Of a stretch of 64,000 bases of DNA, positions 4,468 to 64,000 are shown in pieces. A program made the position numbers and the translations under genes. Source of the DNA: Ideonella livida (lineage in GTDB: Bacteria; Pseudomonadota; Gammaproteobacteria; Burkholderiales; Burkholderiaceae_C). The notes beneath the pieces are model-generated. The model was not told where the DNA came from. It saw nothing but the letters and a program-made list of their open reading frames with translations, and did no database searches. The DNA lies in the NCBI RefSeq assembly GCF_010499455.1, contig NZ_JAAGOH010000020.1:1-64000 (forward strand), given 5' to 3'. The stretch's first letter is position 1. The number at the start of each line of letters is the position of its first letter.

Positions 4468-4546
4468 GCGGTTCACTGTACCCCAGGGGTCCCCCGCCCT
4501 GTGGCGGGCAGGGGCGGGACGCCGTCCCGGCGCCGGAGGGGGGGGC

Positions 4547-5359: not shown

Positions 5360-5380
5360 GCGTGTGCAGGTGCCGGCCCC

Positions 5381-6385: not shown

Positions 6386-6440
6386 CGGCAGCTCATGGGC
6401 GGTTGCGGCGGCGGGCGTTTGGGGCGTTGGCGGGGCATGG

Positions 6441-6455
6441 ATGCCGCCACGGCAT
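6441..6455. promoter_or_regulatory. Candidate LysR box in the lysR/DUF2917 divergent region
   Basis: ATGCCG-CCA-CGGCAT is a perfect 6+3+6 inverted repeat with T-N11-A spacing, 56 bp upstream of the lysR start codon and 97 bp upstream of the DUF2917 start. Its outer halves match the dyad at 5345-5359. Position and shape fit an autoregulatory LysR site serving both divergent genes. Confidence 0.45.
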
Positions 6456-6551
6456 GCATGGCAGGCGGCAACGTCATTGGACCATGCGCCCCCACCCCGG
6501 CAGGATAAGCACCATCGGGTCCCGCCTTGGGGCCCTCACCGGGAGCCTCAC

Positions 6552-7225: not shown

Positions 7226-7386
7226 GCGTCGAGACTGAGCCGGCGGGCGCCCGTCGTCAAGGGCGGAGCGCCCGCCTGTGGCGAGGCCGCGCCGTTGGCG
7301 ATCCCGACTGTTTGGCCGGGACGGGCGGGGCACGCACAATGTCCCGATTCCTGCCACGCCCCGTCAGCCCGGGGCCCCGGACCGCC

Positions 7387-7983: not shown

Positions 7984-8030
7984 GCCGCTGTGCGCGGCGC
8001 CGCTGCGGGGGGCGGCCTGCCGTGCCCTGA

Positions 8031-8064
8031 AAAGAAAGAAGGGTGGCCGTTGCGGGCCACCCTT
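8031..8064 (-). terminator. Rho-independent terminator of the ahcY-tlyA-metF operon
   Basis: Perfect 10-bp stem (AAGGGTGGCC at 8039-8048 with GGCCACCCTT at 8055-8064) and a 6-nt loop. On the minus strand it is followed by TTCTTTCTTTTC. It lies about 190 bp past the metF stop; the stem could also serve the convergent cyclo-ligase gene, but the T-rich side faces the minus-strand transcript. Confidence 0.8.
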
Positions 8065-8069
8065 GAGAA

Positions 8070-8110
8070 GACACATCCCCGGATGTGTCCACCGACCCCA
8101 GTCCGGGTGG
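8070..8110 (-). other. Tandem hairpins in the metF 3' untranslated region
   Basis: A perfect 9-bp inverted repeat with a 2-nt centre (GACACATCC/GGATGTGTC, 8070-8089) abuts a second imperfect hairpin (8089-8110), and the terminator stem follows at once on the minus strand. The three form a compact structured 3' end. Could protect the mRNA or be a 3'UTR-derived small RNA; no function is shown. Confidence 0.4.
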
Positions 8111-8255
8111 TGCAGGTGAATGTGGGCCACCGGTGGGCGACCGCTGAACTTGGACCGCCGGCGCCTGGAGACGCCGTCTGTCCATGCCTGCATTGCACAC
8201 GGTCCGCCGCGGGCCGGCCTTGCGCCTGGTCAAGGTCGGGCGCCGGGCGGCGGGC

Positions 8256-9107
8256 TCACAGCCCCAAGCGGCGGCAGATCTCCAGCACCGGGACGCTTTG
8301 GTTCATGGTGTAGAAGTGCAGGCCCGGCACCCCCGCGCAGCGCAGCTGGTCGCACAGGTCGGTCACCACGTCCAGGCCGAAGGCCTTGATGCTGGCGGTG
8401 TCGTCGCCGAAGCTTTGCAGCCGCAGGCGGATCCAGCGTGGCACCTCGGCGCCGCAGCCGTCGGCAAAGCGCAGGATGCCGCTGGCGTTGGTGATGGGCA
8501 TGATGCCCGGCACCACCGGCACGTCCGCGCCCAAGGCATGGGCCTCATCCACGAAGCGGAAGTAGGCGTCGCTGTTGAAGAAGAACTGGGTGATGGCCGA
8601 ATCTGCCCCGGCCTTGACCTTGGCGGCGAAGGCCTGCACGTCGGCCTGGGGGGAGCGGGCCTGGGGATGCATTTCCGGATAGGCCGCCACCTCCAGGTGG
8701 AAGTGCTGCCCAGTCTCGGCGCGGATGAAGGCGATCAGGTCAGCCGCGTAACGGAATTCACCCATGGCGCCATAGCCGCTGGGCAGGTCGCCGCGCAGCG
8801 CCACCAGACGCTTGAGGCCCATGGCCTGGAATTCGGCCAGGCGTGTGCGCACCGAGTCGCGGGTGGCGCCCACGCAGGTGAAGTGCGAGGCGCCTTCGCA
8901 GCCTTCGGCCAGGATGGCCTGCACGGTCTGCAGCGTGCCGTCCTGGGTGGAGCCGCCGGCCCCGTAGGTCACCGAGCAGAAGGTGGGCCGCAGGGCGTAG
9001 AGGTCCTGGCGCACGGCCGCCAGCTTGGCCGTGCCTTCTGGCGTCTTGGGCGGGAAGAATTCCAGGCTCACCGGCAGGCCGGCGCCGGGGTGGGTGGCGG
9101 TGTTCAT
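8256..9107 (-). CDS. metF: Methylenetetrahydrofolate reductase
   Basis: Reduces 5,10-methylene-THF to 5-methyl-THF, the methyl donor for methionine synthesis. 283 residues, a normal bacterial length. TIM-barrel flavoprotein signatures: SLEFFPPKTPEG at the N-terminus (Glu in the active site), FCSVTYGAGGST, ALRGDLPSG (the conserved folate-binding Asp) and AYPEMHP. Its ATG overlaps the TGA of tlyA by four bases (ATGA), so the two are translationally coupled. With ahcY and tlyA it forms an operon behind an SAH riboswitch, tying methyl supply to SAH level. Confidence 0.96.
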   Translation of the reverse strand: MNTATHPGAGLPVSLEFFPPKTPEGTAKLAAVRQDLYALRPTFCSVTYGAGGSTQDGTLQTVQAILAEGCEGASHFTCVGATRDSVRTRLAEFQAMGLKRLVALRGDLPSGYGAMGEFRYAADLIAFIRAETGQHFHLEVAAYPEMHPQARSPQADVQAFAAKVKAGADSAITQFFFNSDAYFRFVDEAHALGADVPVVPGIMPITNASGILRFADGCGAEVPRWIRLRLQSFGDDTASIKAFGLDVVTDLCDQLRCAGVPGLHFYTMNQSVPVLEICRRLGL

Positions 9108-10102
9108 GCGGCCCTCCGGGCGTGGATGAAGAATTCGCGGTTGCCATCGCCGCCGGCGATCGGGCTGTCGATCCAGGCCTGCACCTGCAGGCCAGCTTCG
9201 GCGCAGGCGCTGCGCAGTCGCTCCTGGACCACGGCATAGAGCGACTCGTCCTTGACCAGTCCGCCCTTGCCCACCTGGCCGGGTTGCAGCTCAAACTGCG
9301 GCTTGACCAGCAGCACCAGCTGGCCGCCCGGGGCCACCAGGGGCACCAGGGCCGGCAGCACCAGGGTCAGGGAGATGAAGGACAGGTCGCCGGTCACCAG
9401 GTCAAAGACGGTGTCGATGCGGGCGTCGGCGAACTCGGGCTTGCGCCGGCGCTCCCGGGGCAGGGTGCCGGTGGCCTCGGCCTTGGCGCGGGCGGCGCGC
9501 TGGGCCTTGAAGTCCTCGATCTCATGCTCCTTGGCGTCGTCGCTGTCGTCGTAGTCGTCGTCGACCACACCGCCGTTGCGCATCCAGGCGTAAGGGGCCT
9601 CGGGCAAGGTGTCGTTGTCCTCTTCCTCTTCCACCAGCTCGCTGAGTGCCTCCTCCCAGGCCTCGGCCAGCAGGGCCGGGGTGAGGGCACGGGCGTTGAG
9701 CCCTTCGATGCACACCACGCGGGCGTCGGCCCGCAGTTGGGAATGGAGCTGGCCGTGGCCCACGTCCACGCCGACCACCTGCTGCGCGCCCTGGCTGAGC
9801 AGGCAGTCGGTGAAGCCGCCGGTGGACTGCCCCACGTCCAGGCAGCGCAGGCCCTGCACGGACAGGCCCAGTTGCCGCAGGGCGCCTTCGAGCTTGAGCC
9901 CGCCGCGGGAGACGAAACGCGCCTCGGCCTGGTCCAGCAGGCGGACTTCGGCGCCCGAGGGGATCTCGTCGCCGTTCTTGATGACCTTCTTCCAGGGGGC
10001 CGGGGCGCCCACGCGCCATTCGACGCCCGAGGCGATCAGGCGCTGGGCCTGGGAGCGGGTGGAGGCATGGCCATGCTCCACCAGAAACGTGTCAGCGCGC
10101 AT
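9104..10102 (-). CDS. tlyA: TlyA-family RNA methyltransferase with an acidic insertion
   Basis: S-adenosylmethionine-dependent RNA 2'-O-methyltransferase of the TlyA (haemolysin A/FtsJ-like) family. The start at 10102 gives an N-terminal S4 RNA-binding domain (MRADTFLVEHGHASTRSQAQ, then RLIASGVEW), followed by the Rossmann methyltransferase motif CLDVGQSTGGFTDCLL, later DLVTGDLSFISL and LVKPQFE. At 332 residues it is about 60-80 longer than usual. The excess lies between about residues 155 and 220 and is strongly acidic (EEEEDND, DDDYDDSDD), probably a disordered loop. It makes SAH as by-product, fitting its place after ahcY; metF overlaps its stop. Confidence 0.92.
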   Translation of the reverse strand: MRADTFLVEHGHASTRSQAQRLIASGVEWRVGAPAPWKKVIKNGDEIPSGAEVRLLDQAEARFVSRGGLKLEGALRQLGLSVQGLRCLDVGQSTGGFTDCLLSQGAQQVVGVDVGHGQLHSQLRADARVVCIEGLNARALTPALLAEAWEEALSELVEEEEDNDTLPEAPYAWMRNGGVVDDDYDDSDDAKEHEIEDFKAQRAARAKAEATGTLPRERRRKPEFADARIDTVFDLVTGDLSFISLTLVLPALVPLVAPGGQLVLLVKPQFELQPGQVGKGGLVKDESLYAVVQERLRSACAEAGLQVQAWIDSPIAGGDGNREFFIHARRAA

Positions 10103-10212
10103 GGCGCGGTGTCCTTCCAGAGGACCGCGGGCGGCGACCGGCAACGGTCCACCACCGCCACCGGCGGGCGGTGGCAGGAGGGGGAAACGCCGGGCCGCGA
10201 CCGCGGTCGGGG

Positions 10213-11658
<1,446 letters not shown>

Positions 11659-11722
11659 GGCGGTGGTTCTGACCGGTGAAGGTGAAACAGCCGCAGCGCG
11701 AGGAGGGGGCGGAGACGGGTCA

Positions 11723-11778
11723 ACACCGGGCCAGGGCCCAGGTGTGCTCACCCCCGCGATACCGCGGTGCGGGTGAGC
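11723..11778 (-). promoter_or_regulatory. Expression-platform hairpins after the SAH riboswitch
   Basis: On the minus strand GCTCACCCGC (11778-11769) can pair with GCGGGGGTGAGC (11757-11746). The first strand is also the 3' strand of the riboswitch core, so the two folds exclude each other. A second hairpin (ACACC-GGGCC type, 11745-11723) follows. Neither has a T-tract, and neither covers the ahcY start codon, so the readout mechanism (transcription, Rho access or stability) is open. Confidence 0.5.
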
Positions 11779-11884
11779 GCCGTTGCCACCGGAGAGGCGG
11801 CCAGCGGGCGCTGGTCGCATCCGGCTTTCCGAGCCTGGGGCCTGCCGGCATGCCGGCAACCTCGCAACGCTCCTCGGAAAGAGA
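11769..11884 (-). ncRNA. SAH riboswitch (S-adenosylhomocysteine-sensing)
   Basis: The minus strand reads CTTTCCGAGGAGCGTTGC, then a GGTTGCCGGCATGCCGGC hairpin region, then CCCCAGGCTCGGAAAG, and after a linker GCAACGGCGCTCACCC. These are the conserved blocks of the SAH riboswitch: P1 formed by CTTTCCGAG (11881-11873) with CTCGGAAAG (11833-11825), the AGGAGCG core, the CCAGGCUCGG strand, and the downstream strand GCAACGGCGCTCACC (11786-11772), which can pair back to GAGCGTTGC. Family knowledge: found in front of ahcY in beta- and gammaproteobacteria and activates expression when bound to SAH. It lies 110 nt upstream of the ahcY ATG. Confidence 0.93.
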
Positions 11885-11913
11885 GGCTGGATTCTAGGGG
11901 AGGTCGGAGAGGC

Positions 11914-13026
11914 TCAGGAACGGGCAGGGCCAAAGCCACGGCCCGCACCGTGCAATGCTGCGCGCCGCGCACGCCGCAGGACCGGCGCGAGCCCGGCCAG
12001 CAGCAGGGCCCAGGTGCCAGGCTCGGGCACGGCGCTGACGGTGGGCACGGTACCGCTGAAGGCCTGCAGGTGGATTTCGCCGTACTGCACCAGGGACTGG
12101 ACGAAGACACCGCCCTCGATATTGTTCGAATGGGTCAGCGTGGCCTCGGTGGCCAGCACCGCACCCCCGAACTGGGTGCCCAGGTTCAGGCTGGTGGCGT
12201 TGTAGAAGTTCCAGATGGTGCGGCTGCCGATGGCCTGTGCACTGCCGCCCAGGAAATTGGCGTTGATCTGGGCGGCACTGACGTCGGTGTTGAAGATGAC
12301 GGTGGTGGCGCTGCCCAGGTCGAACTCGAACTCCGAGAGGGCCAGCAGCGAGTCATCCACTGCGGTGAGGTCGAAGACCGCCAGGCCTTGGGCGTCGGCC
12401 ACCGCATGGAAGGTGACCTTGCCGCCGTTCACGTTCCAGTGGCTGCCCGTGCTGGCCAGGCTGGCCAGGTTGTCGGAGAGGCCGTGCAGCACGCTGGCGA
12501 AGTCGGTGGATTGCGCCACGGCGGTGGCGGCCTGCGCGCTGCCCAGGCTCAGGTTGCCGCTGTTGGCGTTCACCCCGCTGCGGCTGCCGTACACATAGGA
12601 GCCGCCACTGCCGTTGAAATTGCTGTTGCTGGCGTTGCCCCCCACCACGACCGGCCCGTTGTTGATGTTGGCGTTGCTCAGGTGGCCCAGCACGGTGGCC
12701 CCATCGGCCGTGACGTGGAGCCCGCTGGCGTTGCCGGCCACGGTCAGGCCGGCATAGCCGGTGCTGCTGGCGGGCATGTCCTGGGGGTGCATGGCGAACA
12801 CCGCGCCCTGCCCGGTCAGGGTGCCGCCGATATAGCTGCGGCCGTCCACATGCGAGGCCATCTGGGCCTGGCCCAGCGTGACGAGGTTGAATTCCCGCAG
12901 CACCTGCTGGGCGCCCAGCGGGGCCGGCGCGGCCGCCCAGCCCGATCCTGCCGCCAAGCCGAGCCATCCCGCCAGCAGCAGGGGGGCGGCGTGGGCGGGG
13001 GCGGTGCGCAGGGTGGGGGCGGACAT
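11914..13026 (-). CDS. Choice-of-anchor A family protein with PEP-CTERM sorting signal
   Basis: Secreted, surface-directed protein of 370 residues. Signal peptide at the N-terminus (AAPLLLAGWLGLAAGSGWAA), then a choice-of-anchor A domain with the start LREFNLVTLG, Asn/Gly-rich repeats (NANINNGPVVVGGNASNSN), IWNFYNAT and GGAVLATEATLTHSNNIEG. It ends with a PEP-CTERM signal, VPEPGTWALLLAGLAPVLRR, the tag recognised by exosortase EpsH/XrtA in bacteria that make exopolysaccharide. The ATG at 13026 has GGAG nine bases upstream; an ATG six bases earlier lies too close to it. No exosortase or EPS genes are in the window, so they must be elsewhere. Confidence 0.9.
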   Translation of the reverse strand: MSAPTLRTAPAHAAPLLLAGWLGLAAGSGWAAAPAPLGAQQVLREFNLVTLGQAQMASHVDGRSYIGGTLTGQGAVFAMHPQDMPASSTGYAGLTVAGNASGLHVTADGATVLGHLSNANINNGPVVVGGNASNSNFNGSGGSYVYGSRSGVNANSGNLSLGSAQAATAVAQSTDFASVLHGLSDNLASLASTGSHWNVNGGKVTFHAVADAQGLAVFDLTAVDDSLLALSEFEFDLGSATTVIFNTDVSAAQINANFLGGSAQAIGSRTIWNFYNATSLNLGTQFGGAVLATEATLTHSNNIEGGVFVQSLVQYGEIHLQAFSGTVPTVSAVPEPGTWALLLAGLAPVLRRARRAALHGAGRGFGPARS

Positions 13027-13174
13027 GGGCATGGACTCCAACGGCGGCCCGTACGACGGTGCAGGCCTTTTGTTGCCAACTGTAAGTTGTCCGGCACTTT
13101 CGTGCTGGCCCCGCGGCGGGTCGGCGGCTCTGGCCATCCCGCGCCGCGGCCCGTCCATCCATCCCGGCAGGGGG

Positions 13175-14479
13175 TCAGCCGGCGCCGTTGGCGGCCAGTG
13201 CGTCGTCGCCCAGGGTGGACACCAGGGCTGGGCGGCCGACGATCAGCGGGTCCACCGGCCCCATGGCGGCCAGGTCCTTGTTGGTGTAGGGCAGGCGGTG
13301 CAGCACATAACGCATGGCGTTGAGCCGCGCGCGCTTCTTGCAGTCGCTCTTGATCACCGTCCAGGGCGCATCCGAGGTGTCGCAGTGCAGGAACATCGCC
13401 TCCTTGGCCCGGGTGTAGTCGTCCCACTTGTCCAGGCTGGCCTTGTCGATGGGGCTGAGCTTCCACTGCTTGAGCGGGTGCAACTCGCGCTCCTTGAAGC
13501 GCCGGCGCTGCTCCGCCCGGCTCACCGAGAACCAGAATTTGAAGAGATGCACGCCTGAGCGCACCAGCTGGCGCTCGAATTCTGGCGCCTGCCGCAGGAA
13601 TTCGTCGTACTCCTGGGGCGAGCAGAAGCCCATGACCCGTTCGACGCCGGCGCGGTTGTACCAGCTGCGGTCGAACAGCACGATCTCGCCGCGGGTGGGC
13701 AGGTGGGCGATGTAGCGCTGGAAGTACCACTGCCCGCGCTCGACCTCGCTGGGCTTCTCCAGGGCCACCACGCGGGCGCCCCGGGGGTTGAGGTGCTCCA
13801 TGAATCGTTTGATGGTGCCGCCCTTGCCCGCTGCGTCGCGCCCCTCAAAGAGGATCACCACCCGGGCGCCGGTCTCCTTGACCCAGGCTTGCAGCTTGAG
13901 CAGTTCCACCTGCAGGCGGTACTTCTGCTTTTCGTAGCGTCGACGTGAGAGCAGGTTCTTGTAGGGGTAGGCCCCTTCGCGCCAATGGGCGGAGAGTTCC
14001 ATGTCGGGATCGGTGCCAGGGCGCGGCTCGGGGTCGGCATGGCGCAAAGCCTGGCGCAGGGCCCGCACGTCATCGGGGGACGCGCCCTTCAACAGCACCT
14101 GCAGCCGGTCCAGGCGGCTGCTCGCCGGTGCCCTGGCTTGCAGCAGTTCGCGGGCGACCTCCTGCTGCAGACCCCGTGCCGAGGCGGTGGCATGACGCAC
14201 CTTGTCGGCCCCCAGGGCGGTGGCGTCATGGGCCGGGGCGACGTCTCCGGCCTGGGTGGCGCGTGGGCGGCGGGCAGCACGTGGCGGCCGCGCGGGGGCG
14301 GGTGCCGGAGCAGGTGTCGGAGCGGGTGTCGGAGCAGGTGCCGGAGCAGGTGCTGGCGCTGTGGCTGGGGCAGTTTTTTCCGTCAGTTCAGGGGCGCCTG
14401 TCCCTGCGACAGGTGCGGAGGCGACGGCGGTGGGGGCGGATGCGGTGCGGCGGCGAGAGGAGGCGGCGGAGGTGGCCAT
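13175..14479 (-). CDS. ppk2: Polyphosphate kinase 2
   Basis: Transfers phosphate between polyphosphate and nucleoside diphosphates. 434 residues; the PPK2 domain occupies about 150-400 with the Walker A loop EGRDAAGKGGTIKRF, the following HLNPRGARVVAL, the Walker B/lid segment LFDRSWYNRAGVERVMGF, and SPIDKASLDKWDDY. It resembles class I (ADP-phosphorylating) enzymes. The first ~75 residues are a low-complexity Ala/Pro/Thr linker made by a 12-bp repeat in the DNA. A candidate FNR/ANR box lies 61 bp upstream of the start, suggesting induction at low oxygen. Confidence 0.93.
   Translation of the reverse strand: MATSAASSRRRTASAPTAVASAPVAGTGAPELTEKTAPATAPAPAPAPAPTPAPTPAPAPAPARPPRAARRPRATQAGDVAPAHDATALGADKVRHATASARGLQQEVARELLQARAPASSRLDRLQVLLKGASPDDVRALRQALRHADPEPRPGTDPDMELSAHWREGAYPYKNLLSRRRYEKQKYRLQVELLKLQAWVKETGARVVILFEGRDAAGKGGTIKRFMEHLNPRGARVVALEKPSEVERGQWYFQRYIAHLPTRGEIVLFDRSWYNRAGVERVMGFCSPQEYDEFLRQAPEFERQLVRSGVHLFKFWFSVSRAEQRRRFKERELHPLKQWKLSPIDKASLDKWDDYTRAKEAMFLHCDTSDAPWTVIKSDCKKRARLNAMRYVLHRLPYTNKDLAAMGPVDPLIVGRPALVSTLGDDALAANGAG
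14301..14360. repeat. Five 12-bp tandem repeats inside ppk2
   Basis: Five consecutive near-identical units of the form GGTGYCGGAGCR (14301, 14313, 14325, 14337 and a diverged fifth at 14349). Read on the minus strand they encode the Ala-Pro-Thr-Pro linker near the N-terminus of PPK2. As the unit is a multiple of three, copy-number change would lengthen or shorten the linker without a frameshift. Confidence 0.85.
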
Positions 14480-14533
14480 GGCAGTGATGACAAAACGATG
14501 ACGGTGATCTTGAAACTTCGCCGGGGGCGGGTC

Positions 14534-14547
14534 TTGATGGGGGTCAA
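14534..14547. promoter_or_regulatory. Candidate FNR/ANR box
   Basis: TTGAT-GGGG-GTCAA matches the FNR/ANR consensus TTGAT-N4-ATCAA at nine of ten defined bases. Its centre is about 61 bp upstream of the ppk2 start, where a -41.5 activator site would sit for a short leader, and about 175 bp upstream of the GGDEF-EAL gene on the other strand. Regulation is inferred from the match alone. Confidence 0.5.
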
Positions 14548-14715
14548 GCCAGGCCTTTGCCTGCGGCCAATTTCCCAGTGCCCCTGACGGCGGGCGGCGC
14601 GGATGAGGCCCACGGCCTGCGGCCGGCGCTCAAGCTGGGCCTAGTCCGGTCGATATCCACTCAGACCTACGGGGCATGTGCCCTGACCTGCCCACTGCCC
14701 ACGCCGCCCTCCGCC

Positions 14716-16731
14716 ATGCTGACCCGCCCACTTCTTCGCGTGCAATTGCCCGTCCTGTTGGTGCTGGCCGCTGTGGTCGCGGTCCTGGGCCTGGGGCCGC
14801 GGGCCGTGGCCGACCGCTTGATGGCGGCCGAGGGCGAAGACGCCGCCTACGACTGGGCCCAGACCCTGGTGCTGGTGGTCCCTGGGTTGGAGCGGCTCTT
14901 CTCCGGGCGCGGTTTTGGTGAGGACACCGTGGAGCACCTGCTGGTGCTGCGCGACCTCCACGACGTCTTTCGCTTCAAATTCTTCAAGCCGTCGGGCGAG
15001 CTGCTGCTCAGCTCCGACAACCTGGAGGCACTGGGGCCTGTACCTGTGGAGGGACAGTCCTCGCCAGCCGCAGCCGGGTTGGCGTTGCGGCTGGCCACGC
15101 AGATGGCCCGCCAGTCGATGGAGCCGCCCAGCGACATCGCAGCCGAGGTGGCGCGCACGCGGCGCCCCATCGCGCAGATGGAACGCGGCGGTCCGGACCG
15201 GCCTGCCTTGTACACCGAGGCCTATGTGCCGGTGGAACACCAGGGGCAGGTGCTGGGTGTGGTGGAGGTGTATGTGGACCAGACCACCCGGACTGGCCAC
15301 ATTCAGCGCGCTTTTGCCTGGTTGTCGGTGACGGTAGGTCTGGTGATGGTGGTGCTGGGCGCACTGGGGCGCTGGCTGTGGCGGCAGCGCATGGCGCGCG
15401 CCCGCCAGGACGAGGAGCAGGCCCGCTACCTGGCACGGTTCGATCCGCTGAGTGGGACCCTCAACCGCAGCAGTTTCAACGAGGCGCTGACGGCCCAGGT
15501 GTCGCTCTCGGCCCAAGGGGGACCGGGCTTTGCGGTCCTTTGTGTGAACCTGGACCACTTCAAGCGGGTGAACGACCAGTTCGGCCTGGCCGCCGGCGAC
15601 GCCGTGCTGCATGAGGTGGGGGAGCGCCTGCGGGGTCTGGTGCGCCATGGCGACCAGGTGGCGCGCCTGGGCGGGGATGAATTCGCCATCCTGCAGTCGG
15701 ATGTCAAGGGGGAAGAGGATGTCGGGGTGCTGGCGCAGCGCATCATCGAGAGCCTTGGCGAGCCCTTGAGCCTGGACAAGGGTGAGGTGCCGCTGGGCTG
15801 CAGCGTAGGGGCTGCCCTGTGGGGGGTGGACGCCCGTGACGTGGACGGACTGATGCACAAGGCCGACATGGCGCTTTACCGGGCCAAGTGCGACGGGCGT
15901 GGCACCTTCAGCTTCTATGACGCCCGGTTGGACCAGCAGCTGCAGGATCGCCGAGACCTGACCCGCGACCTGGGTCAGGCCATAGCCCAGCAGCAGCTGG
16001 CGCTGCATTTCCAGCCCCTGTTTTGCGCCGAGGACGGGGCCCTGACCGGCTACGAGGCCCTGGCGCGGTGGCCGCACCCGCAGCGGGGCTTCATCTCGCC
16101 GGCGGTCTTCATCAGCCTGGCCGAGGAGTCGGGCCTGATCGAGGCCCTGGGCGGCTGGGTGCTGCGGCAGGCCTGCACGGAAGCCGCCCAGTGGCCGGCC
16201 CCGCTGACCGTGGCGGTCAACCTTTCGGCCGCGCAGTTCCGCCGCGGCGATCTGGTGGGCGAGGTGCGCCAGTGCCTGCAGGAGACCGGCCTGCCCCCTG
16301 AGCGGCTGGAGTTGGAGGTCACCGAGTCGCTGCTGATCGGCAGCCCCGAGGCGGTGGCCGACACGCTCAAGGCCCTGACCGGGCTCGGGGTGCGCATCGC
16401 CATGGACGACTTTGGCACGGGCTACTCCAGCCTGGCCTACCTCTGGCGCTTCCCCTTCCACAAGCTCAAGATCGACCGGGCCTTCACCCAGCACCTGGAG
16501 AACGATCCCAAGGTCCGGGTGATCGTGCGCTCCATCATCTCCCTGGCCCACTCGCTGGACATCCGCGTCAATGCGGAAGGGGTGGAGACCGACGGACAGC
16601 GTGCCGCATTGCAGGGGCTGGGGTGCGACGAACTGCAGGGCTTTCTGTTGGGAAGACCCGCGCCGGTGGAGGCCCTGACCCACCGCGCGCGCCGCGTGGT
16701 CAAGACGGTGGTGGAGCCGGCCGGCGCCTGA
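14716..16731 (+). CDS. Membrane-bound GGDEF-EAL cyclic-di-GMP protein
   Basis: 671 residues from the ATG at 14716. TM1 (about residues 8-27) and TM2 (about 202-222, [20 protein letters not shown]) flank a periplasmic sensor region of ~175 residues with no named domain that I recognise. The diguanylate cyclase domain has an intact [10 protein letters not shown] active site and an inhibitory RxxD site (RHGD) five residues before it. The phosphodiesterase domain has YEALARW, the metal-binding [16 protein letters not shown] and NAEGVET, so both halves appear catalytically competent. Likely sets local c-di-GMP level in response to an external signal. Stands alone between ppk2 (divergent) and purT. 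Confidence 0.93.
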
Positions 16732-55723: not shown

Positions 55724-56569
55724 TCAACCCAGGAAGTGCCGGCGATAGCGCGCCGGCAGGTCAGCCATGTCCATCATGATGGGCAGGTCCGCGGTGTTGA
55801 ACTGCGGGTCCCAGGCCGGGGCGCCCAGCAGCCGGGCGCCACAGCGCAGGTAACCTTTGATCAACGGCGGGGCCTCCACCGCATGGTCCGGGGCCAGGGC
55901 GTCCACCGGCAGCGGCAGGTGCGGCGTGACCCGCCAGACCGGATCGGCCAGGTGGGTGGCGCTGAGCTGCCGCCACAGGCCCGCTGCCTGGCGTCCGCCG
56001 TCGCGCAGGCTCACGCTGGCGCAGCCGATCATGGTGTCCAGGCCGTTGTCGTGCATGAAGCGCGCCAGCGCGGACCACAGCAGCAGGATCACGCCGCCGT
56101 CCCGGTGCGCCGGATGCACGCAGGATCGGCCCAGTTCCACCAGGCGCGGCAGGCGTGTGGCCAGGGCGGACAGGTCGAATTCCTGGGCGGAATAGAAGCC
56201 GCCGGCCCGCTGCGCCGCCTGCGGGGTGAGCAGGCGGTAGGTGCCCACCACCGCCGCCGGGCTGCCGTCGGCCGGCAGGTGGCGCACCAGCAGGTGCTCG
56301 CAGTGGGCGTCAAAGGCGTCCACGTCATGGCCGGGCAGTGCCCGGTCGTCGATCTCAGCGCCCATCTCCCCGGCGAACACGGCATGGCGCAGGCGCTGGG
56401 CCTCGCGCACCTCGTCCTGGTGCCGGGCCCAGCTGAACTGGTAGGGCTGCGGACCGGCGCCGGCCCGGGCCGTGGCGCCCCCGTTGACGGGGTGCGGCCA
56501 AGCCGGCGCAGGCGAGGCCGTCCGGCTCTCGGGCGTGAGGACGTCGTCGGTGGGCGGGGTGCGGTTCAT
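55724..56569 (-). CDS. GNAT-fold acyltransferase, OlsB-like
   Basis: 281 residues from the ATG at 56569. LRHAVFAGEMGAEID, VVGTYRLLTPQAA, VELGRSCVHPAHRDGGVILL and a metal/substrate region near LIKGYLRCGARLLGAPAWD match the acetyltransf_5 (haemolysin-like) group that includes OlsB, which N-acylates ornithine in ornithine-lipid synthesis. It sits on the opposite strand between ptsH and ptsI, splitting an operon that is usually contiguous. OlsA is not in the window, so the ornithine-lipid role is uncertain. Confidence 0.8.
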   Translation of the reverse strand: MNRTPPTDDVLTPESRTASPAPAWPHPVNGGATARAGAGPQPYQFSWARHQDEVREAQRLRHAVFAGEMGAEIDDRALPGHDVDAFDAHCEHLLVRHLPADGSPAAVVGTYRLLTPQAAQRAGGFYSAQEFDLSALATRLPRLVELGRSCVHPAHRDGGVILLLWSALARFMHDNGLDTMIGCASVSLRDGGRQAAGLWRQLSATHLADPVWRVTPHLPLPVDALAPDHAVEAPPLIKGYLRCGARLLGAPAWDPQFNTADLPIMMDMADLPARYRRHFLG

Positions 56570-56708
56570 GGCGGCGATGTTGGTCAGCGGCCGTGTCAGC
56601 CCCATGAACCGGGCCTGACGGGGCCGTGACAGCTGCAGGGCCGCTGGCGCCGGCGCCCGGGATTTCGTCAAGGCGCACCGGGTGGGGGCGCTGCTACATT
56701 CCCAGCGC

Positions 56709-58451
56709 ATGAGCATCCAGGTTTTCGGTCTTCCGGTCTCTCGTGGTGTGGCCATCGGCCGCGCGGTGCTGGTGGCGTCCAGCCGGGTGGACGTGGCCCA
56801 CTACTACGTGGAGGCGCAGGCCGTCGAGCACGAGGTCGAGCGGCTGCGGCATGCCCGCGACGCCGTGGCCCAGGAGCTCATGCTGCTCAAGGAGGAGGTG
56901 CCCGAGGATGCGCACGCCGAGTTGGTGGCGCTGCTGGACGTGCACCTCATGCTGTTGCACGACGACTCCCTGGCCGAGGCCACCAAGCAATGGGTGCGCG
57001 AGCGCCACTACAACGCTGAGTGGGCCATTGCCGCGCAGCTGGAGGTGGTGGCGCGGCAGTTCGACGAGATGGAGGACGAGTACCTGCGCGAGCGCAAGGC
57101 CGACGTCGAGCAGGTGGCCGAGCGCCTGCTGCTGGCCCTGGGCCGCGCCGCCGCCCTGCAGCCTGAAGCCCTCAAGCCGCGCGACTTCGCCGGTGAGGAC
57201 CCGCTGGTGCTGGTGGCCAACGACATCTCGCCGGCGGACATGCTGCAGTTCAAGCGCAGCGTGTTCACCGGTTTTGTCACCGACGTCGGCGGGCGCACTT
57301 CGCACACGGCCATCGTGGCCCGGTCCATGGACATCCCGGCGGTGGTGGGCGCCCGTGAGGCCAGCCGCCTGGTGCGGCAGGACGACTGGCTGGTGATCGA
57401 CGGCGATGCCGGTGTGCTCATCGTCAACCCTTCGCCCATCGTGCTGGAGGAGTACCGCTTCCGCCAGCGCCAGTGCGAGCTGGAGCGTGCCCGCCTGGAC
57501 CGCCTGCGCCACACCCCCTGCGTCACCCTGGACGGCCAGGCGGTGGAGCTGCTGGCCAACATCGAGCTGCCCGCCGATGCCCCCACGGCGCTGGCCTCCG
57601 GGGCGGTGGGGGTGGGCCTGTTCCGCACCGAGTTCATGTTCATGAACCGCGAGGGCCGCCTGCCCGATGAGGAGGAGCAGTTCGAGGGCTACCGGCAGGC
57701 GGTGGCGGGCCTCAAGGGCCTGCCGGTGACCATCCGCACAGTGGACATCGGTGCGGACAAGCCGCTGGACCGGATGAACGTCCACGAGCTGCGCCATGAG
57801 CACCTGCTCAATCCGGCGCTGGGCCTGCGGGCCATCCGCTGGAGCCTGTCGGAGCCGGAGATGTTTGCCCGGCAGCTGCGCGCGGTGCTGCGTGCCGCGG
57901 CCCTGGGCAAGGTCCGCCTGCTCATTCCGATGCTGGCGCATGTCGAGGAGATCCTGCGGGTCAAGGCGGCCATCGCCGAGGCGCAGGAGAGCCTGGCCCG
58001 CCAGGGCTTGGCCCATGGCCGCGTGGAGCTGGGCGCCATGATCGAGGTGCCGGCGGCCGCGCTGATGATGCCGGTCTTCCTGCGCCACTTCGACTTCGTC
58101 TCCATCGGCACCAACGACCTGATCCAGTACACCCTGGCCATCGACCGGGCCGACGAGACCGTCTCGCACCTGTACGACGCCTGGCACCCGGTGGTGCTGC
58201 AACTGGTGCATCAGGTCATCACCCAGGCCCAGCAGGCCGGCAAGCCGGTGTGTGTGTGCGGTGAGATGGCGGGAGACCCCGACTTCACCGAGCTGCTGCT
58301 GGCCATGGGCCTGCGCAGCTTCTCCATGCACCCGTCGCAGATCAGCCTGATCAAGCAGCGCGTGCTGCGCACCGACACCCGCACCCTGCGGGCCCGGCTG
58401 GCCGCCACCCTGGCCAGCGACCGTCCGCAGGACACCTGGGCCGGCGGCTGA
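56709..58451 (+). CDS. ptsI: Phosphoenolpyruvate-protein phosphotransferase (enzyme I)
   Basis: 580 residues from the ATG at 56709, slightly shorter than the open frame upstream. The phosphorylated His is in GGRTSHTAIVARSMDIP, the PEP-binding Arg in LFRTEFMFMNRE, Cys in VCVCGEMAGDP, and the Mg site in IGTNDLIQYTL. Phosphorylates HPr. Separated from ptsH by the opposite-strand acyltransferase. Confidence 0.96.
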   Translation: MSIQVFGLPVSRGVAIGRAVLVASSRVDVAHYYVEAQAVEHEVERLRHARDAVAQELMLLKEEVPEDAHAELVALLDVHLMLLHDDSLAEATKQWVRERHYNAEWAIAAQLEVVARQFDEMEDEYLRERKADVEQVAERLLLALGRAAALQPEALKPRDFAGEDPLVLVANDISPADMLQFKRSVFTGFVTDVGGRTSHTAIVARSMDIPAVVGAREASRLVRQDDWLVIDGDAGVLIVNPSPIVLEEYRFRQRQCELERARLDRLRHTPCVTLDGQAVELLANIELPADAPTALASGAVGVGLFRTEFMFMNREGRLPDEEEQFEGYRQAVAGLKGLPVTIRTVDIGADKPLDRMNVHELRHEHLLNPALGLRAIRWSLSEPEMFARQLRAVLRAAALGKVRLLIPMLAHVEEILRVKAAIAEAQESLARQGLAHGRVELGAMIEVPAAALMMPVFLRHFDFVSIGTNDLIQYTLAIDRADETVSHLYDAWHPVVLQLVHQVITQAQQAGKPVCVCGEMAGDPDFTELLLAMGLRSFSMHPSQISLIKQRVLRTDTRTLRARLAATLASDRPQDTWAGG

Positions 58452-58471: not shown

Positions 58472-59791
58472 TCAGCCGGGCAGTGCCCGGCCGGCGTGCA
58501 GGCGGTGCAGCACCGCCTGAACCGCCGCATTGGGTCGGCCCGGCAGGCTCCAGCCCCCGCGCACCGGGGCGCGCGGTGCCGCCGCGGCCCGCAGGCAACT
58601 GGCCACCACCTGCGTCACCGTGGGGCGCCGTGGCCACCGCGGCAGCCCCAGGGGAGCCTGCAGGCCTTGCAGCCGCCAGGCGTTGTCGAACTGGTCATAG
58701 GCCTGGGGCCAGGCCCACTGCGGCACGCCGGCGGCCAGGCCCTGTGCGCAGGCGCCGATCCCTCCATGGTGCAGGAAGGCCTGGGCCTGGGGCAGCAGCC
58801 AGGCCAGCGGGGCCGAGGCAGTCTGCCGTTCGGTGGGGGCCAAGGGCCGGGACGGGCCCGGACCCAAGTGCAGCACCCGCCAGGTCACGCCCCCCTCGCC
58901 CTGGGCCAGCCGGTGCGCTGCCGCCGCATAGACCGCCGGCGCGGCGGTGGCCGCCGAGCCCGGGTAGCACACCAGGCGCGGGCCGCCGGGTGCCTCCCAC
59001 CATGCCTGCAGCGCCGGGTCGGGCGCCCCACCGGCCTCGTAGAGCGGAAAGCCCAGGCACGCCACCGGCATCGGCCAGTCGTCGGGCAGGGACTGCCCGG
59101 GCGGGGCGAAGTCCGCGGGAAACAGGCCCAGCACCTGCCGGGGCGACATCAAGCCCGTGGCGAACAGCGGCCGGGGCAGTGGCGGCAGGCCGAGCTGCCG
59201 GCGCCAGCCGTCGAGGCGGGCGCCGGCCATGGGCTCCAGCTTGTGGTGGTCCAGCCAGCGCCAGGCCAGGCGGCGCAGTGCATCGGGCGCCCAGGCCGGT
59301 ACGGCATGGCCTTGCAGGAAGAACGGGTGCCGGGCCGAGCGCAGGCCCGCCGGGGCGGTGTGGGCGGTGGTCAGCCGCAGGTTGAGCGACTCCAGCACCA
59401 GCCGGGCGCCGGCCACCAGGGGCGAGGCCAGCACCTGCAGCGGCGGTTCGCCGGCCGGCGGCGCCAGGCGCTGCAGGGCGGCCACGGTGGGGCCGATCGC
59501 CGGTACCGCCAGGTGGCGCCACAGCACCCCAAAGCCCCCCAGCGGGTGCCACAGGCCGGGGTGTTGAGCGCAGCGTGTCATGGTGGCGGCGTCGACCACC
59601 GCCTCAAAGGGCACACCCTGCGCCTGCACCTCCTCGCGGTGCAGTTCTCCGCCCAGGAAAAGCACCGCGTGCCCCTGCTCGGCCAGGGCGCGGGCCACGG
59701 CCAGAAAGGGGTGCAGGTCGCCGGCACTGCCCAGGGTGGCCACCACATGGGTGGGCCGGCGGCCGGTTGCCGGTGGCTTCACAGGGCTCAC
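58472..59791 (-). CDS. UGT/MGT-like glycosyltransferase (GT1, RhlB-type)
   Basis: 439 residues from a GTG at 59791 that shares GTGA with the stop of the upstream hydrolase. THVVATLGSAGDLHPFLAVA is the start of macrolide/UGT-like and RhlB-like transferases, and the C-terminal half has the nucleotide-sugar part RLVCYPGSAA and the donor motif LHHGGIGACAQGLAAGVPQW. Such enzymes add a sugar from a nucleotide donor to a hydrophobic acceptor (lipid, polyketide, hydroxy fatty acid). Last gene of the P450/hydrolase operon, so the acceptor is probably the product of that cluster. Confidence 0.85.
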   Translation of the reverse strand: MSPVKPPATGRRPTHVVATLGSAGDLHPFLAVARALAEQGHAVLFLGGELHREEVQAQGVPFEAVVDAATMTRCAQHPGLWHPLGGFGVLWRHLAVPAIGPTVAALQRLAPPAGEPPLQVLASPLVAGARLVLESLNLRLTTAHTAPAGLRSARHPFFLQGHAVPAWAPDALRRLAWRWLDHHKLEPMAGARLDGWRRQLGLPPLPRPLFATGLMSPRQVLGLFPADFAPPGQSLPDDWPMPVACLGFPLYEAGGAPDPALQAWWEAPGGPRLVCYPGSAATAAPAVYAAAAHRLAQGEGGVTWRVLHLGPGPSRPLAPTERQTASAPLAWLLPQAQAFLHHGGIGACAQGLAAGVPQWAWPQAYDQFDNAWRLQGLQAPLGLPRWPRRPTVTQVVASCLRAAAAPRAPVRGGWSLPGRPNAAVQAVLHRLHAGRALPG

Positions 59792-61062
59792 CACGGCACG
59801 GGACCGAAGTGCTGGAACTGGCGGAAGTCGGTGACGGCAGGCCGGTGGCCGCAGCGCTGCGCCAGGGTCTGCGGGCCGGCGGTGAGCCGGAAGTAGTCCA
59901 GGCTGTCCGGCCCGCCGGGCAGGTCGGCCGCCATGAGGTACTGGAAGTGGCAGCGGTACTTGTCGGCCTTGATCCGGGCGTAGGCCGCCGGGCTGAAGCG
60001 CTGGGCAAAGCGGGCGTTGAGCACCCGGGGTGAGGTGTGCGGTGGCCGTGCCCAGGGGTGGCGGGGCGGGCCTTGCAGTGGCATGCAGCAGCCGTCCACC
60101 GGTGAGCTCAGGTCCACCCAGTGCAGGCCGTCGGCCGGACCCAGGGCGGCCAGGCGGTCCAGGTCGGCGCGAAAGGCGGCCGCCTCGGGCTGGTAACTCA
60201 TGATGGGCGTGCAGTGGCCCAGGGTCAGGAAGGACAGCGGCGGGCGGGGCTGCCCGGCGGGCCAGCGGGCCAGGGCGCGGGCCACCACGATGACGGCCAT
60301 CATGGCGCCGGAGCTGTGGCCCACCACCAGCAGTTCGTCGACCGCGCGATGGGGGTCGGCCTGGGCCTGCCAGTGGTCCAGCAGCACGCCGGCCAGACGG
60401 TCCAGGCGCTCGTCGAGGTCGGGCATGCGCCCGCGCATGTGGTCCACCATGCAGGCGGTGCTGCGCATCATCCAGCCGCTGAAGCTGCGCCGTTCGGCCC
60501 ACTCGGCCGCACCGGCCAGGGCAGGCAGGCCCAGCGCGGCCAGCGCCAGGCCCCAGCCCAGCGCGCCCTGCCAGGCCAGGTGGGCGGCGCCGGCCAGCAC
60601 GCCCGCACTGCCCAGCGCCAGCAGCAGCAGGGCCAGGCCGGGAAAGGCCATGAACATGAACTGCGGCCAGGAGCTGCGCGCCAGCTTCCAGAGCACGCCG
60701 CCGCGCCACAAGGCCCAGCTGGCGTAGGCGATGCGGCCCATCAGGCCCCAGCGGCCACGCGGCCAGTGGGCGCGCACCACGTCGTCCCAACGCAGCAGGT
60801 CGAACTGGGTGTCGGTGGCGGGGGCGTCGGGGCCGGCCTGCCAGCGCACCGTCCAGCCCATGGCCTGCGGGCCGCGCTTACGCCGCGGTCCGACCTCCAG
60901 TGTCCAGCCCTCCAGCGCAGCCTGGGACCGGCCCTCGGCCTGGTAGAGCTGGTGGTAGTGGTTGGGCCCTTGCGGGTCGAAGCCGCTGACGTAGAGGACC
61001 TGGCGGCGGCGCACCGGGCCTGATTCGGGCGCGGCGGCGGGCGGGCGGGAGGGTTCGGCCAT
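59788..61062 (-). CDS. Membrane protein with a lipase-type GxSxG motif (paralogue A)
   Basis: 424 residues, no family name that I can give. N-terminal RRRQVLYVSGFDPQGPNHYH, then WDDVVRAHWPRGRWG, two or more hydrophobic segments (about residues 120-175), then ELLVVGHSSGAMMAVIVV with the nucleophile-type Ser around residue 250, and LTLGHCTPIMSYQP, LHWVDLSSPVDGC. The Ser motif suggests an alpha/beta-hydrolase-like esterase, lipase or acyltransferase. The gene ending at 62908 is a paralogue with the same order of motifs. Overlaps the glycosyltransferase gene by four bases; the small membrane protein gene is 4 bp upstream. Confidence 0.75.
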   Translation of the reverse strand: MAEPSRPPAAAPESGPVRRRQVLYVSGFDPQGPNHYHQLYQAEGRSQAALEGWTLEVGPRRKRGPQAMGWTVRWQAGPDAPATDTQFDLLRWDDVVRAHWPRGRWGLMGRIAYASWALWRGGVLWKLARSSWPQFMFMAFPGLALLLLALGSAGVLAGAAHLAWQGALGWGLALAALGLPALAGAAEWAERRSFSGWMMRSTACMVDHMRGRMPDLDERLDRLAGVLLDHWQAQADPHRAVDELLVVGHSSGAMMAVIVVARALARWPAGQPRPPLSFLTLGHCTPIMSYQPEAAAFRADLDRLAALGPADGLHWVDLSSPVDGCCMPLQGPPRHPWARPPHTSPRVLNARFAQRFSPAAYARIKADKYRCHFQYLMAADLPGGPDSLDYFRLTAGPQTLAQRCGHRPAVTDFRQFQHFGPVPW

Positions 61063-61066
61063 GGGG

Positions 61067-61414
61067 TCAGAAGATGGTCTGCTTGTGCAGGCCTTTGGCC
61101 AGCACCAGGTCTACCAGGGGTTGCTCGCGCTTGTTGGCGCGGCGGCAGTGGTCCTTCTGGAACAGGTCGGTCAGGCGGATCACCCAGCGGGCCCACCAGC
61201 GGCGCTCGCGCTCACGCCAGGCGTGGGAGGACACCGACTCCCAGGCGTAGCCGTTGAACAGCGTGGCGTTGACGAAGTGGTCCAGGGCCCGCACGCCGGC
61301 GCGCCCGCGCTCGGTGCGGCCGAAGAACCCCACCGCCACCAGCAGCAGGTAGCCCGCCACCGCCAGGGGCACGATCGCCGTCATCAACACGAAACCGGCC
61401 AGCCGTTCCTTCAT
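61067..61414 (-). CDS. Small membrane-anchored protein of unknown function
   Basis: 115 residues from the ATG at 61414, which has GAGG six bases upstream; a GTG 18 bases earlier is the alternative. One N-terminal transmembrane helix (FVLMTAIVPLAVAGYLLLVA), then a soluble part with ALDHFVNATLFNGYAWESVS, SHAWRERERRWWARWV and DLFQKDHCRRAN. The last block recalls small phage-type proteins with a similar His-Cys-Arg ending, by memory only. Lies between the P450 and hydrolase genes, so it may be an accessory subunit of that system. Confidence 0.65.
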   Translation of the reverse strand: MKERLAGFVLMTAIVPLAVAGYLLLVAVGFFGRTERGRAGVRALDHFVNATLFNGYAWESVSSHAWRERERRWWARWVIRLTDLFQKDHCRRANKREQPLVDLVLAKGLHKQTIF

Positions 61415-61462
61415 CCTTGTCCTCAAACTCACTGCGCAGGTGCCGCGTGCGGCGGCGTGGCC

Positions 61463-62911
61463 TCAGGCCCGTTGGTGCACCTTCAGGGCAATGCCATTTT
61501 CCGCGCGGATGGTCAGCCGGCCCACGGGCTCGGGCACATGGCCGGGCACCGGGGCCAGGCGCACATGCAGCGCGACGGTGGACAGCACCAGCGCCGCCTC
61601 CTGCAGGGCGAAGGCCGCGCCGATGCACACCCGAGGCCCCATGCCAAAGGGCAGGTAGGCCTTGCGCAGCGACTCCTTGGTGCTCAGGGGCTGCTGGTCT
61701 TCCTCGTGGGCGTAGCGGTCGGGGTCGAAGGCGTCGGGACGGGCCCACAGCTCGCGGTGACGCTGGATCAGCCAGGGCGAAATGACCACCGAGGCGCCGG
61801 CCTTGACCGTCTTGTCGCGCATGGGGCAGGTGCTGGCGGACTCGCGCGCCAGAAAGCCCACGGGCGGGAACAGGCGCAGGGTCTCCCGGAAGACGTTGCG
61901 CGAGAGCGCCAGCTCCTTGAGCTGGCCGGGGTCGTCACCCAGGCCGGGCAGGTGCCGCGCGGCCTCGGCGTGCAGACGCTCTTGCACGTCCGGGGCGTTG
62001 GCGATGAGGTGCAGGGCCCAGGACATGGCGCTGGCCGAGGTTTCGTGGCCGGCCAGGAAGAGCATGGCCACCTGGTCCACCAGCTCCTCGAAGCTGAAGC
62101 CTTGGCCGGTCTTCGCGTCGCGCACCATCAGGAGGGTGGCCAGGATGTCCCCGCCTTCCTCCGTGGGCGCCGGTGTGCCCGCGGCGGTGGCCTGGTGGAG
62201 CGCGGCCTGGTAGGCGTCGTGGCGCGGGCGGATCAGGCCTTCGATGAGGGCCCGGATCTCGGCGGCGGCCTGCCGGCTGCGGCGGATCTGGCCCCAGGGC
62301 CGCAGCCAGCGCAGGCCGAAGAACGCCGGCATCATCACCCGCGGGGCGGTCTCCTGGTAGCGCTCGAAGGCGCGGAAGACCTGCAGGGCCTCGGCGCTTT
62401 CCAGCGGGCGCGAGAGGATGGTGCGCAGGATGATGTCGGCCGCCACATGGGTCATCTCGACCTCCATGTCGTGCACCCCGCCCTCGGGCACGGCCTTCAG
62501 GCGGGCGACCATGGCGTCGGCCGCGTCGCGCATGCGGCCGAACACCAACTTGACCCGCGCCGCCTCGAAGGAGGGGTTCATCAGCTCGCGCTGGCGCCGC
62601 CAGGTCTCGCCGTTGGTGGTGAAGATGCTGTCGCCCAGCAGCGGGCGCAGGGCCTCGCCCAGCATGGCGTGCTTGGGAAAGGCGTCGGCCTGCTCCATCA
62701 CCTGGCGCACCAGGGGCGGCTCGTTGACCATGTAGACGTCCACCCCGGGCAGGTGGACTTCACCCATCTTCATGCGGTAGCTGCGCTCGTAGAGGCTGTC
62801 CAGCCAAGAGCGGCGCTTGCGCAGGAACATGGCCAGCAGGCTGGGCCGTTTGGCCGCGGGCTGGGGGTAGTGGGGGCAGAAGTGCTGGGCCGGGGGCTGC
62901 TTGGCGGTCAT
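61463..62911 (-). CDS. Cytochrome P450
   Basis: 482 residues. The I-helix oxygen motif FLAGHETSASAMSWALHL (about residue 289), the ExxR motif FRETLRLFPPVGFLA, and the heme-binding FGMGPRVCIGAAFALQE with the Cys ligand near residue 427. No N-terminal anchor is obvious. The P450 lacks a fused reductase, so it needs a ferredoxin and reductase from elsewhere (a [2Fe-2S] ferredoxin gene lies at 22.9 kb). Its ATG overlaps the stop of paralogue B by four bases. The general pattern is closest to fatty-acid or terpene-type P450s, but the substrate is unknown. Confidence 0.93.
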   Translation of the reverse strand: MTAKQPPAQHFCPHYPQPAAKRPSLLAMFLRKRRSWLDSLYERSYRMKMGEVHLPGVDVYMVNEPPLVRQVMEQADAFPKHAMLGEALRPLLGDSIFTTNGETWRRQRELMNPSFEAARVKLVFGRMRDAADAMVARLKAVPEGGVHDMEVEMTHVAADIILRTILSRPLESAEALQVFRAFERYQETAPRVMMPAFFGLRWLRPWGQIRRSRQAAAEIRALIEGLIRPRHDAYQAALHQATAAGTPAPTEEGGDILATLLMVRDAKTGQGFSFEELVDQVAMLFLAGHETSASAMSWALHLIANAPDVQERLHAEAARHLPGLGDDPGQLKELALSRNVFRETLRLFPPVGFLARESASTCPMRDKTVKAGASVVISPWLIQRHRELWARPDAFDPDRYAHEEDQQPLSTKESLRKAYLPFGMGPRVCIGAAFALQEAALVLSTVALHVRLAPVPGHVPEPVGRLTIRAENGIALKVHQRA

Positions 62912-64000
62912 GCGGGGGCGGACGAATCCGGGGCGGGGTGGGGGCTGGGCCGGGCGTCGCCGGAGGCGGTGGCCGTCCAGGGCCGTGCCATCTGGGTGGC
63001 CAGCGTGTCGGGGCCGGCGGTCAGGGCCACGGCATCGTAGAAACCCACCCGAGGTGTGGATTTGAGGTATTGCATGTGCAGCTCATGGCGGCGGCGCAGC
63101 AGGCGCTGGTACTGGGCCGCGTCCATGGCCTGGTGAAAGCGCGGCGAGCGTTGCTGCAGGCGCGGGGTGGCGGGTCCACCCCAGGGCGTGACCCGGGCAA
63201 AGGCGGCCCAGTCTGAAGGGGCGCTCACGTCCAGCCAGTGCAGGCCGGGGTGGGCGGCCAGCCGGTCCAGGGCGGCGCGGTAGGCGCCGGCGGCCGGCTG
63301 GTAGGCCAGGATGGGGGTGCAGTGGGCCAGGGTCAGCAGGCCCAACTGCGGGCCTTCGCGGCCCAGCCAGGGGGCCAGGCGCAGAGCGCGGTCCAGCATG
63401 TCGGTGGCCAGTATGGCGCCGGTGCTGTGGGCCACCACCAGCAGCTCGCGCACACCGGCCTCGCGGGCCTGTTCGGCATCGGCCACCAGCTCACGGGCGA
63501 AGGCGTCCAGGCGGGCTTCCAGGTCGGGTAGCCGGCCGCGGGCCTGGGCGAAGGTGAAGCCATACAGGCGCAGCAGCCATTCGGCGTCCAGCAGGCGCAC
63601 CAGGCCGCGCCACGGCAGCAGGGCCGTGGCCAGGCCGGCCAGGGCACCCAGGCTGGCCGAGGCCGCCCCGCTGGCCGTGGCCGCCCAGGCCCCCAGGCCG
63701 GCACCGGCGCCCAACGCGGCGCAGGCCACGCCAAAGGGAAAGACCGCCAGCCAGAAGGCGGCCGGGGCAGCGCGCCGCACCCGGGCGAAGGTGCCGTCGG
63801 TGCCGGCGCGGCCGTAGACCTGCAGGTAGTCGCGCAGGGCGCGGCCCAGCGGGCCCGGCCAGTGGGCCTGCACCACGTCGTGCCAGCTGAAGACGCCGTA
63901 ACGGGTGCGGCAAGAGGCCTGGCCCGGGGCCTGCCAGGCCACCTCCCAGCGGTGCAGGTGGCCGATTTGCTGGCGCTGGGTGCCGACGGTCACCGTCTCC
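62908..64000 (-). CDS. Membrane protein with a lipase-type motif (paralogue B), N-terminus cut by window edge
   Basis: The frame is open at base 64000, so the N-terminus is missing; 364 residues remain. It follows the same order as the product of the gene at 59788: FSWHDVVQAHWPGPLGR, hydrophobic segments (FWLAVFPFGVACAALGAGAG), LLVVAHSTGAILATDMLDRA, LTLAHCTPILAYQP, LHWLDVSAPSDW, and a final LTAGPDTLATQ (LTAGPQTLAQR in A). The Ser of AHSTGA is the expected nucleophile. Shared gaps and order make a duplication likely. The P450 start overlaps its stop codon. Confidence 0.75.
   Translation of the reverse strand, partial: ETVTVGTQRQQIGHLHRWEVAWQAPGQASCRTRYGVFSWHDVVQAHWPGPLGRALRDYLQVYGRAGTDGTFARVRRAAPAAFWLAVFPFGVACAALGAGAGLGAWAATASGAASASLGALAGLATALLPWRGLVRLLDAEWLLRLYGFTFAQARGRLPDLEARLDAFARELVADAEQAREAGVRELLVVAHSTGAILATDMLDRALRLAPWLGREGPQLGLLTLAHCTPILAYQPAAGAYRAALDRLAAHPGLHWLDVSAPSDWAAFARVTPWGGPATPRLQQRSPRFHQAMDAAQYQRLLRRRHELHMQYLKSTPRVGFYDAVALTAGPDTLATQMARPWTATASGDARPSPHPAPDSSAPA

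Follow-up and report, generated by a model that had tools for sequence, protein, structure and literature searches.

In the rhamnolipid system, a hydrolase-fold acyl enzyme (RhlA) and a UGT-like transferase (RhlB) together yield a glycolipid. To our knowledge, RhlA lacks a membrane insert and the rhamnolipid pathway uses no cytochrome P450 (P450). The sophorolipid cluster of Starmerella bombicola contains, in the available part of its description, the P450 Cyp52m1, the glycosyltransferases Ugta1/Ugtb1, an acetyltransferase, an MDR and a lactone esterase (PMC8476993). Here, we describe an operon from a 64,000-nucleotide stretch of Ideonella livida DNA (hereafter the window; positions 1 to 64,000 of contig NZ_JAAGOH010000020.1, our C20, in a genome of 5.26 Mb), which joins a P450 and a UGT-type glycosyltransferase (GT) to two paralogous serine hydrolase-like proteins, HydA and HydB (collectively Hyd). 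The P450 is a member of a Hyd-associated clade, and the Hyd–P450 pair is the core of the system, a core that is common to distantly related bacteria. A role in tailoring membrane lipids is our preferred, tentative reading of this operon.

Gene content and conservation of the operon

The operon is a run of five minus-strand genes within the window, followed by two further members past its end:

58472..59791, minus strand: GT, a UGT/GT28-type glycosyltransferase, whose GTG start overlaps the HydA stop
59788..61062, minus strand: HydA, serine hydrolase-like, with a presumed transmembrane helical insert and a putative triad S250-D323-H372
61067..61414, minus strand: small protein with a long N-terminal helix and a helical domain common to phage proteins; alternative start GTG 61432
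61463..62911, minus strand: cytochrome P450, a member of the hydrolase-linked clade, with a PF00067 match
62908..64000, minus strand: HydB, the HydA paralogue, cut at the window end and extending to about 64116 on C20
64182-65141: MBL1, an MBL-fold hydrolase, past the window end and next in the run
about 65148-66881: FadD-like acyl-CoA ligase, the next gene of the run after MBL1

Gene set, coordinates and overlaps bear out the five genes, their strand and their spacing as given in an earlier, sequence-only reading of the window. HydB and the P450 overlap by 4 nt (62908-62911), as do HydA and GT given a GT start at GTG 59791; the small gene is separated from HydA by 4 nt, and from the P450 by 48 nt if it starts at ATG 61414 or by 30 nt if it starts at GTG 61432. 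HydB, which occupies 4909-6186 of the fetched stretch L009, most likely starts past the window at ATG 64116 or 64125, about 60 nt from MBL1, with TTG 64185 as a possible further start. MBL1 and the ligase are 6 nt apart.

We identified six loci in relatives by one scan of genome contigs with HydA as the query. The order HydB–P450–small–HydA–GT was kept in all six, and FadD–MBL1 preceded the operon in each of the four whose contig reaches that far, L010 and L013 being cut by the contig start. Identities to the window proteins were 77-80% for FadD, 56-65% for MBL1, 73-88% for the small protein, 70-72% for the P450, 44-49% for HydA, 36-55% for HydB (the top value from a part-gene) and 41-49% for GT. 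Between two Ideonella species (L011 and L012), dN/dS was 0.07 for FadD, 0.11 for MBL1, 0.18 for HydB, 0.07 for the P450, 0.06 for the small protein, 0.13 for HydA and 0.14 for GT, and all seven genes are thus under purifying selection. The kept order and the dN/dS range of 0.06-0.18 together indicate that the operon is more than a chance arrangement. The sequence-only reading had proposed a search for the same order in other Burkholderiales, naming unlinked genes as what would speak against it; since the order held in every relative, its linkage claim stands.

The P450 and its linkage to Hyd

The P450 matches PF00067 at 6.9e-66, and its AGHET, ExxR and F..G.R.C.G residues are invariant among 24 aligned P450 sequences, identifying a cytochrome P450 with intact heme motifs. 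Among named NCBIfam P450 subfamilies, the best match reached 169.9 bits against a cut-off of 700; the nearest models, of terpene P450s, were likewise below cut-off.

We searched 398 genomes of the phylum with a profile of 24 Hyd-linked P450 sequences (35 loci and the window had one). This identified 32 places above 560 bits, with the next match at 443 bits; training on Hyd-linked P450s sharpens this score gap, and adjacency played no part in the search. Hyd lies upstream on the same strand of 29 of the 32 clade P450s, the edges of the two matches being 11-159 bp apart, and is present in all 30 genomes that hold the P450 clade. The three clade P450s without such a neighbour are in G093, where the Hyd gene is split, and as second copies in G779 and the window genome. 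Searched for directly at 1e-15, Hyd was found at 53 places in 44 genomes of this sample, and 40 of these places were fetched with their flanks. On plasmids, the seven records matching the P450 at 1e-60 all fall among the 13 with Hyd. In a sample of 274 genomes of the class, 14 had a Hyd match at 0.001, which was strong in the window genome (G000), G093, G386, G378 and, as a contig-end piece, G509, and weak (4e-5 to 9e-4) in the other nine.

The second clade P450 of the window genome (C7:161157-162533; L182 9155-10597) has no Hyd beside it and adjoins a groEL-like gene. In G093 (L031, C1:3210700-3230600), transposase genes interrupt Hyd, while the P450 and the small gene remain; the larger Hyd piece lies about 4.6 kb from the P450. 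Directly after the unpaired clade P450 of G779 (L183 9147-11917) is a gene for a PF00487 membrane protein, AlkB-like by eye, a neighbour compatible with alkyl-chain hydroxylation.

An unrooted tree of 69 Hyd proteins, built from tblastn pieces longer than 300 residues and without L031 and L039, placed the P450-linked Hyd proteins in one group of 42 sequences (support 95/97). L078 falls inside this group, with Hyd adjoining a GT21 gene and no P450 detected in the locus. HydA (seven sequences) and HydB (six) resolve into separate clades, each supported at 100/99, indicating that the duplication is older than the split of these loci.

The Hyd family

HydA and HydB are paralogues, as the sequence-only reading held, with 35% identity and a tblastn E value of 5e-45. 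Neither matches a Pfam or NCBIfam model at 0.001, and at relaxed thresholds HydA weakly matches Lipase_3 (0.094); by these comparisons, the two appear to form a family without a name in either database. The GxSxG motif that had been read in both hydrolases is present in strict form in HydA (GHSSG) but not in the window HydB, which has AHSTG. An alignment of 25 Hyd sequences shows no variation at D323 and H372, with conservation of at least 90% at S250, giving a conserved putative triad.

The AlphaFold model of Hyd, made with 16 sequences, has a pLDDT of 86 and a pTM of 0.88, and places S250 directly after a strand (243-249). HydA has the nucleophile elbow, Asp and His that mark the alpha/beta-hydrolase superfamily. 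The model also contains two long helices at 132-193, which we read as a membrane insert with a presumed transmembrane topology. Profile matches to solved structures lie mostly around the elbow, the best being to a carboxylesterase (0.0022). Phosphatase-type and other Foldseek matches, with query TM-scores of 0.09-0.14 among the matches listed, were treated as non-matches. We also considered RkpI, described in the available part of the source as a transmembrane protein of capsule biosynthesis and export, and dropped it for want of a sequence link to Hyd.

The glycosyltransferase

GT matches the EryCIII-like C domain PF06722 (6.7e-10; 39.5 bits against a cut-off of 31.7) and the GT28 N domain PF03033 (1.6e-7; 31.9 against 26.2). 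Pfam therefore upholds both enzyme identities given by the sequence-only reading, the P450 and the UGT-type transferase. The closest solved chains are sterol 3-beta-glucosyltransferases (3e-12), followed by matches to rhamnosyltransferases (2.6e-9), and macrolide glycosyltransferase models match below their cut-offs.

The small protein

The small protein matches phrog_3342 (4.8e-7, residues 49-103) and phrog_34710 (2.5e-5), sharing a domain with phage proteins whose function is undescribed. Its model is all helical (pLDDT 82), and the operon-bound form adds a long N-terminal helix relative to short relatives in L033-L036. Foldseek returned two matches only, at E 6.4 and 8.2, which were of no use.

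Among 300 Burkholderiales genomes, 11 matched the small protein at 0.001. The five strong matches (at least 171 bits) are in exactly the five genomes that hold Hyd at 1e-15. In each of these, the P450 lies in the same fetched locus, in varying order and orientation (L028-L031). The fetched stretches of the six weak genomes (L032-L037) contain no Hyd or P450, so the presence of the domain is not by itself a sign of the operon. A small-protein profile matched only L038 among 57 other loci.

No phage record was found with the window protein as the query, and a distant relative from L033 matched 26 records. Two of these were inspected: in Mannheimia phage 587AP1 (L151), the homologue comes directly after a tail-fibre assembly gene, and in Nitrincola phage 1M3-16 (L150), genes for a putative tail protein and a putative glycosyl hydrolase are nearby.

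Genomic context of the operon and of Hyd elsewhere

Extension past 64000, proposed earlier as a way to more members, yielded MBL1 and the FadD-like ligase; no transporter was recognised among the genes called at 58.5-68.6 kb, with about 68.6-69.8 kb left unassigned by the gene caller. Another MBL protein is encoded about 230 nt beyond the ligase, on the upstream side. Further upstream (L009 11805-19998) are a response regulator, identified by Pfam, and genes read by eye as quinoprotein alcohol dehydrogenase-like, aldehyde dehydrogenase-like and sigma-54 activator-like. On the other flank, the window encodes a GNAT protein resembling the ornithine lipid synthase OlsB (55724-56755; 1.3e-46, below cut-off), with ptsI between it and the operon; L012 and L013 likewise have relatives of both genes close to the operon.

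We identified UGT-type transferases near Hyd in the window group, Polaromonas JS666 plasmid 1 (L038), Methylorubrum pCMU01 (L041) and L126, and GT21-type transferases in L125, where a patatin gene precedes Hyd, and L078. A PF05159 capsule protein is encoded near Hyd in L038, and KpsS-like proteins in L029 and L066 (403 and 273 bits, below the NCBIfam cut-off of 600). In L066, a single run (2236-15461) holds genes for a polyketide synthase (PKS), a BioF/SPT-like protein, a Hyd relative, a KpsS-like protein, an SDR and a sulfatase-like protein, the PKS and the sulfatase being named by eye. We additionally identified an ICMT-like methyltransferase near Hyd in L042, in L047 and at five of the 40 flank-fetched loci. 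In Methylobacterium-type loci (L110, L112, L117, L043 and L044), the Hyd relative and a Wza-like gene for polysaccharide export are divergently oriented. The window genome itself carries KpsC/KpsS-type genes on contig C13.

Proposed function and alternatives

We propose that the operon tailors membrane lipids by P450 hydroxylation, acyl transfer or cleavage, and then glycosylation, a reading to which we give slightly less than an even chance. It is favoured because of the Hyd–P450 linkage, the occurrence of Hyd near UGT, GT21, capsule and PKS-BioF genes, and the likeness of GT to sterol glucosyltransferases. Hyd would be a membrane-anchored serine hydrolase or acyltransferase, transferring or releasing an acyl chain that the partner P450 would hydroxylate. 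In the Burkholderiales lineage, this unit would have been extended by a second Hyd, the small helical protein, the UGT, the acyl-CoA ligase and the MBL-fold hydrolase, with presumptive roles for the small and MBL proteins. The ligase would supply an activated fatty acid and the UGT-type transferase would add a sugar to the new hydroxyl or to the head group, so that the expected product would be a hydroxylated, glycosylated membrane lipid. A wider version, in which a widespread Hyd–P450 unit produces a hydroxylated membrane lipid in alpha- and betaproteobacteria and the Burkholderiales version is a sophorolipid-like glycolipid pathway that recruited a phage-domain small protein, is doubtful.

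The sequence-only reading had suggested a glycolipid or glycosylated hydroxy-acid pathway. This product class fits the transferases beside Hyd in L038, L041, L126, L125 and L078, the capsule proteins in L029, L038 and L066, and the PKS, BioF-like and SDR set of L066, but in most other screened loci none of the transferase types searched lies near the Hyd–P450 core. Several further observations weigh against lipid tailoring. The P450 clade is missing from 14 of the 44 Hyd genomes, L029 has Cys at the expected Ser position, and a Foldseek search for solved relatives of Hyd gave none at E 0.001. The f254 loci, assigned to a Rhodobacter-type family from the Paracoccus and Pseudorhodobacter sequences that group within f254 in the Hyd tree, have as recurrent neighbours ccdA-like (11/19) and fumC-like (10/19) genes, and no lipid gene was recognised among these neighbours, all named by eye. 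The Burkholderiales version also has fatty-acid and alcohol-oxidising genes on its flanks, and together with the GMC oxidase and lipase-like genes near FadD in some relatives these suggest catabolism.

A catabolic operon, in which the P450 would oxidise alkanes, fatty acids or esters, Hyd cleave esters and FadD feed beta-oxidation, with GT as a side activity or detoxifier, stays a rival because an acyl-CoA ligase and alcohol-oxidising genes are close by; we consider it unlikely. FadD is present in the window and in every relative whose contig reaches it, GMC oxidoreductase genes (L011 and L014, with Pfam support for L011 only) and lipase-like genes (L014 and L015) are close to FadD, and quinoprotein alcohol dehydrogenase-like and aldehyde dehydrogenase-like genes, read by eye, lie about 4-9 kb upstream of it on C20; the AlkB-like neighbour of the G779 P450 would also suit catabolism. 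However, among the loci screened, FadD and MBL1 were seen beside the unit nowhere but in the window and the six loci of its group, and elsewhere Hyd occurs with glycosyltransferases or capsule genes. Alternatively, the Hyd family may serve lipid carriers of capsule or exopolysaccharide, with the P450 modifying the carrier or anchor. The KpsS-like or PF05159 genes in L029, L038 and L066, the PKS and BioF/SPT-like genes of L066, the divergent export gene of the Methylobacterium-type loci and the Kps genes on C13 speak for such a role, but the surroundings of the window operon contain no recognised capsule gene and KpsS and KpsC queries found none in 41 further loci, leaving it quite improbable. 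A specialised-metabolite tailoring or detoxification set of P450 and macrolide-type glycosyltransferase would suit the below-cut-off matches of GT to macrolide glycosyltransferase models and of the P450 to terpene P450 models; with no backbone synthase recognised in the operon, and the core pair in a recurrent chromosomal setting within one family, we rate it very unlikely. Both of these roles are less supported than lipid tailoring and catabolism.

The Hyd–P450 pair occurs in at least 25 genomes of one alphaproteobacterial family in the sample and is scattered through others; Hyd has no family model in the databases searched, and no assigned function was found for the pair. If lipid tailoring is correct, the hydroxylated or glycosylated product is a bacterial membrane component awaiting identification. 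The operon also gives a defined context to a phage protein domain without described function.

Comparison with known systems

A literature search, with most subscription journals outside its coverage, returned nothing recognised as describing the operon. The kinds of component are known, and we found no description of the conserved pair or of its seven-gene extension in the literature and family databases searched. The wcb/rkp capsule clusters with a WcbR/RkpA PKS (PMC3908369), so far as the available text goes, resemble L066 in its PKS, BioF/SPT-like, SDR and KpsS-like genes alongside a Hyd relative. The window operon differs: genes for PKS, BioF-like or Kps proteins were not recognised in it, and neither was a WcbR/RkpA-type PKS among the genes called on the 20 kb of L009. 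The available part of a capsule review (PMC12220298) makes no mention of a P450. The RhlA/RhlB system is approached through the match of GT to solved rhamnosyltransferases.

The sophorolipid cluster, in its available description, combines P450 hydroxylation and then UGT glycosylation of a fatty chain with a hydrolase, as proposed here, and is unlike the operon in belonging to a yeast and in having two UGTs and an exporter (PMC8476993). The Ideonella operon has one UGT, two hydrolases with helical inserts and a small protein, and no exporter was recognised. Seemingly not a member of that cluster type, the operon would resemble sophorolipid assembly in its logic only.

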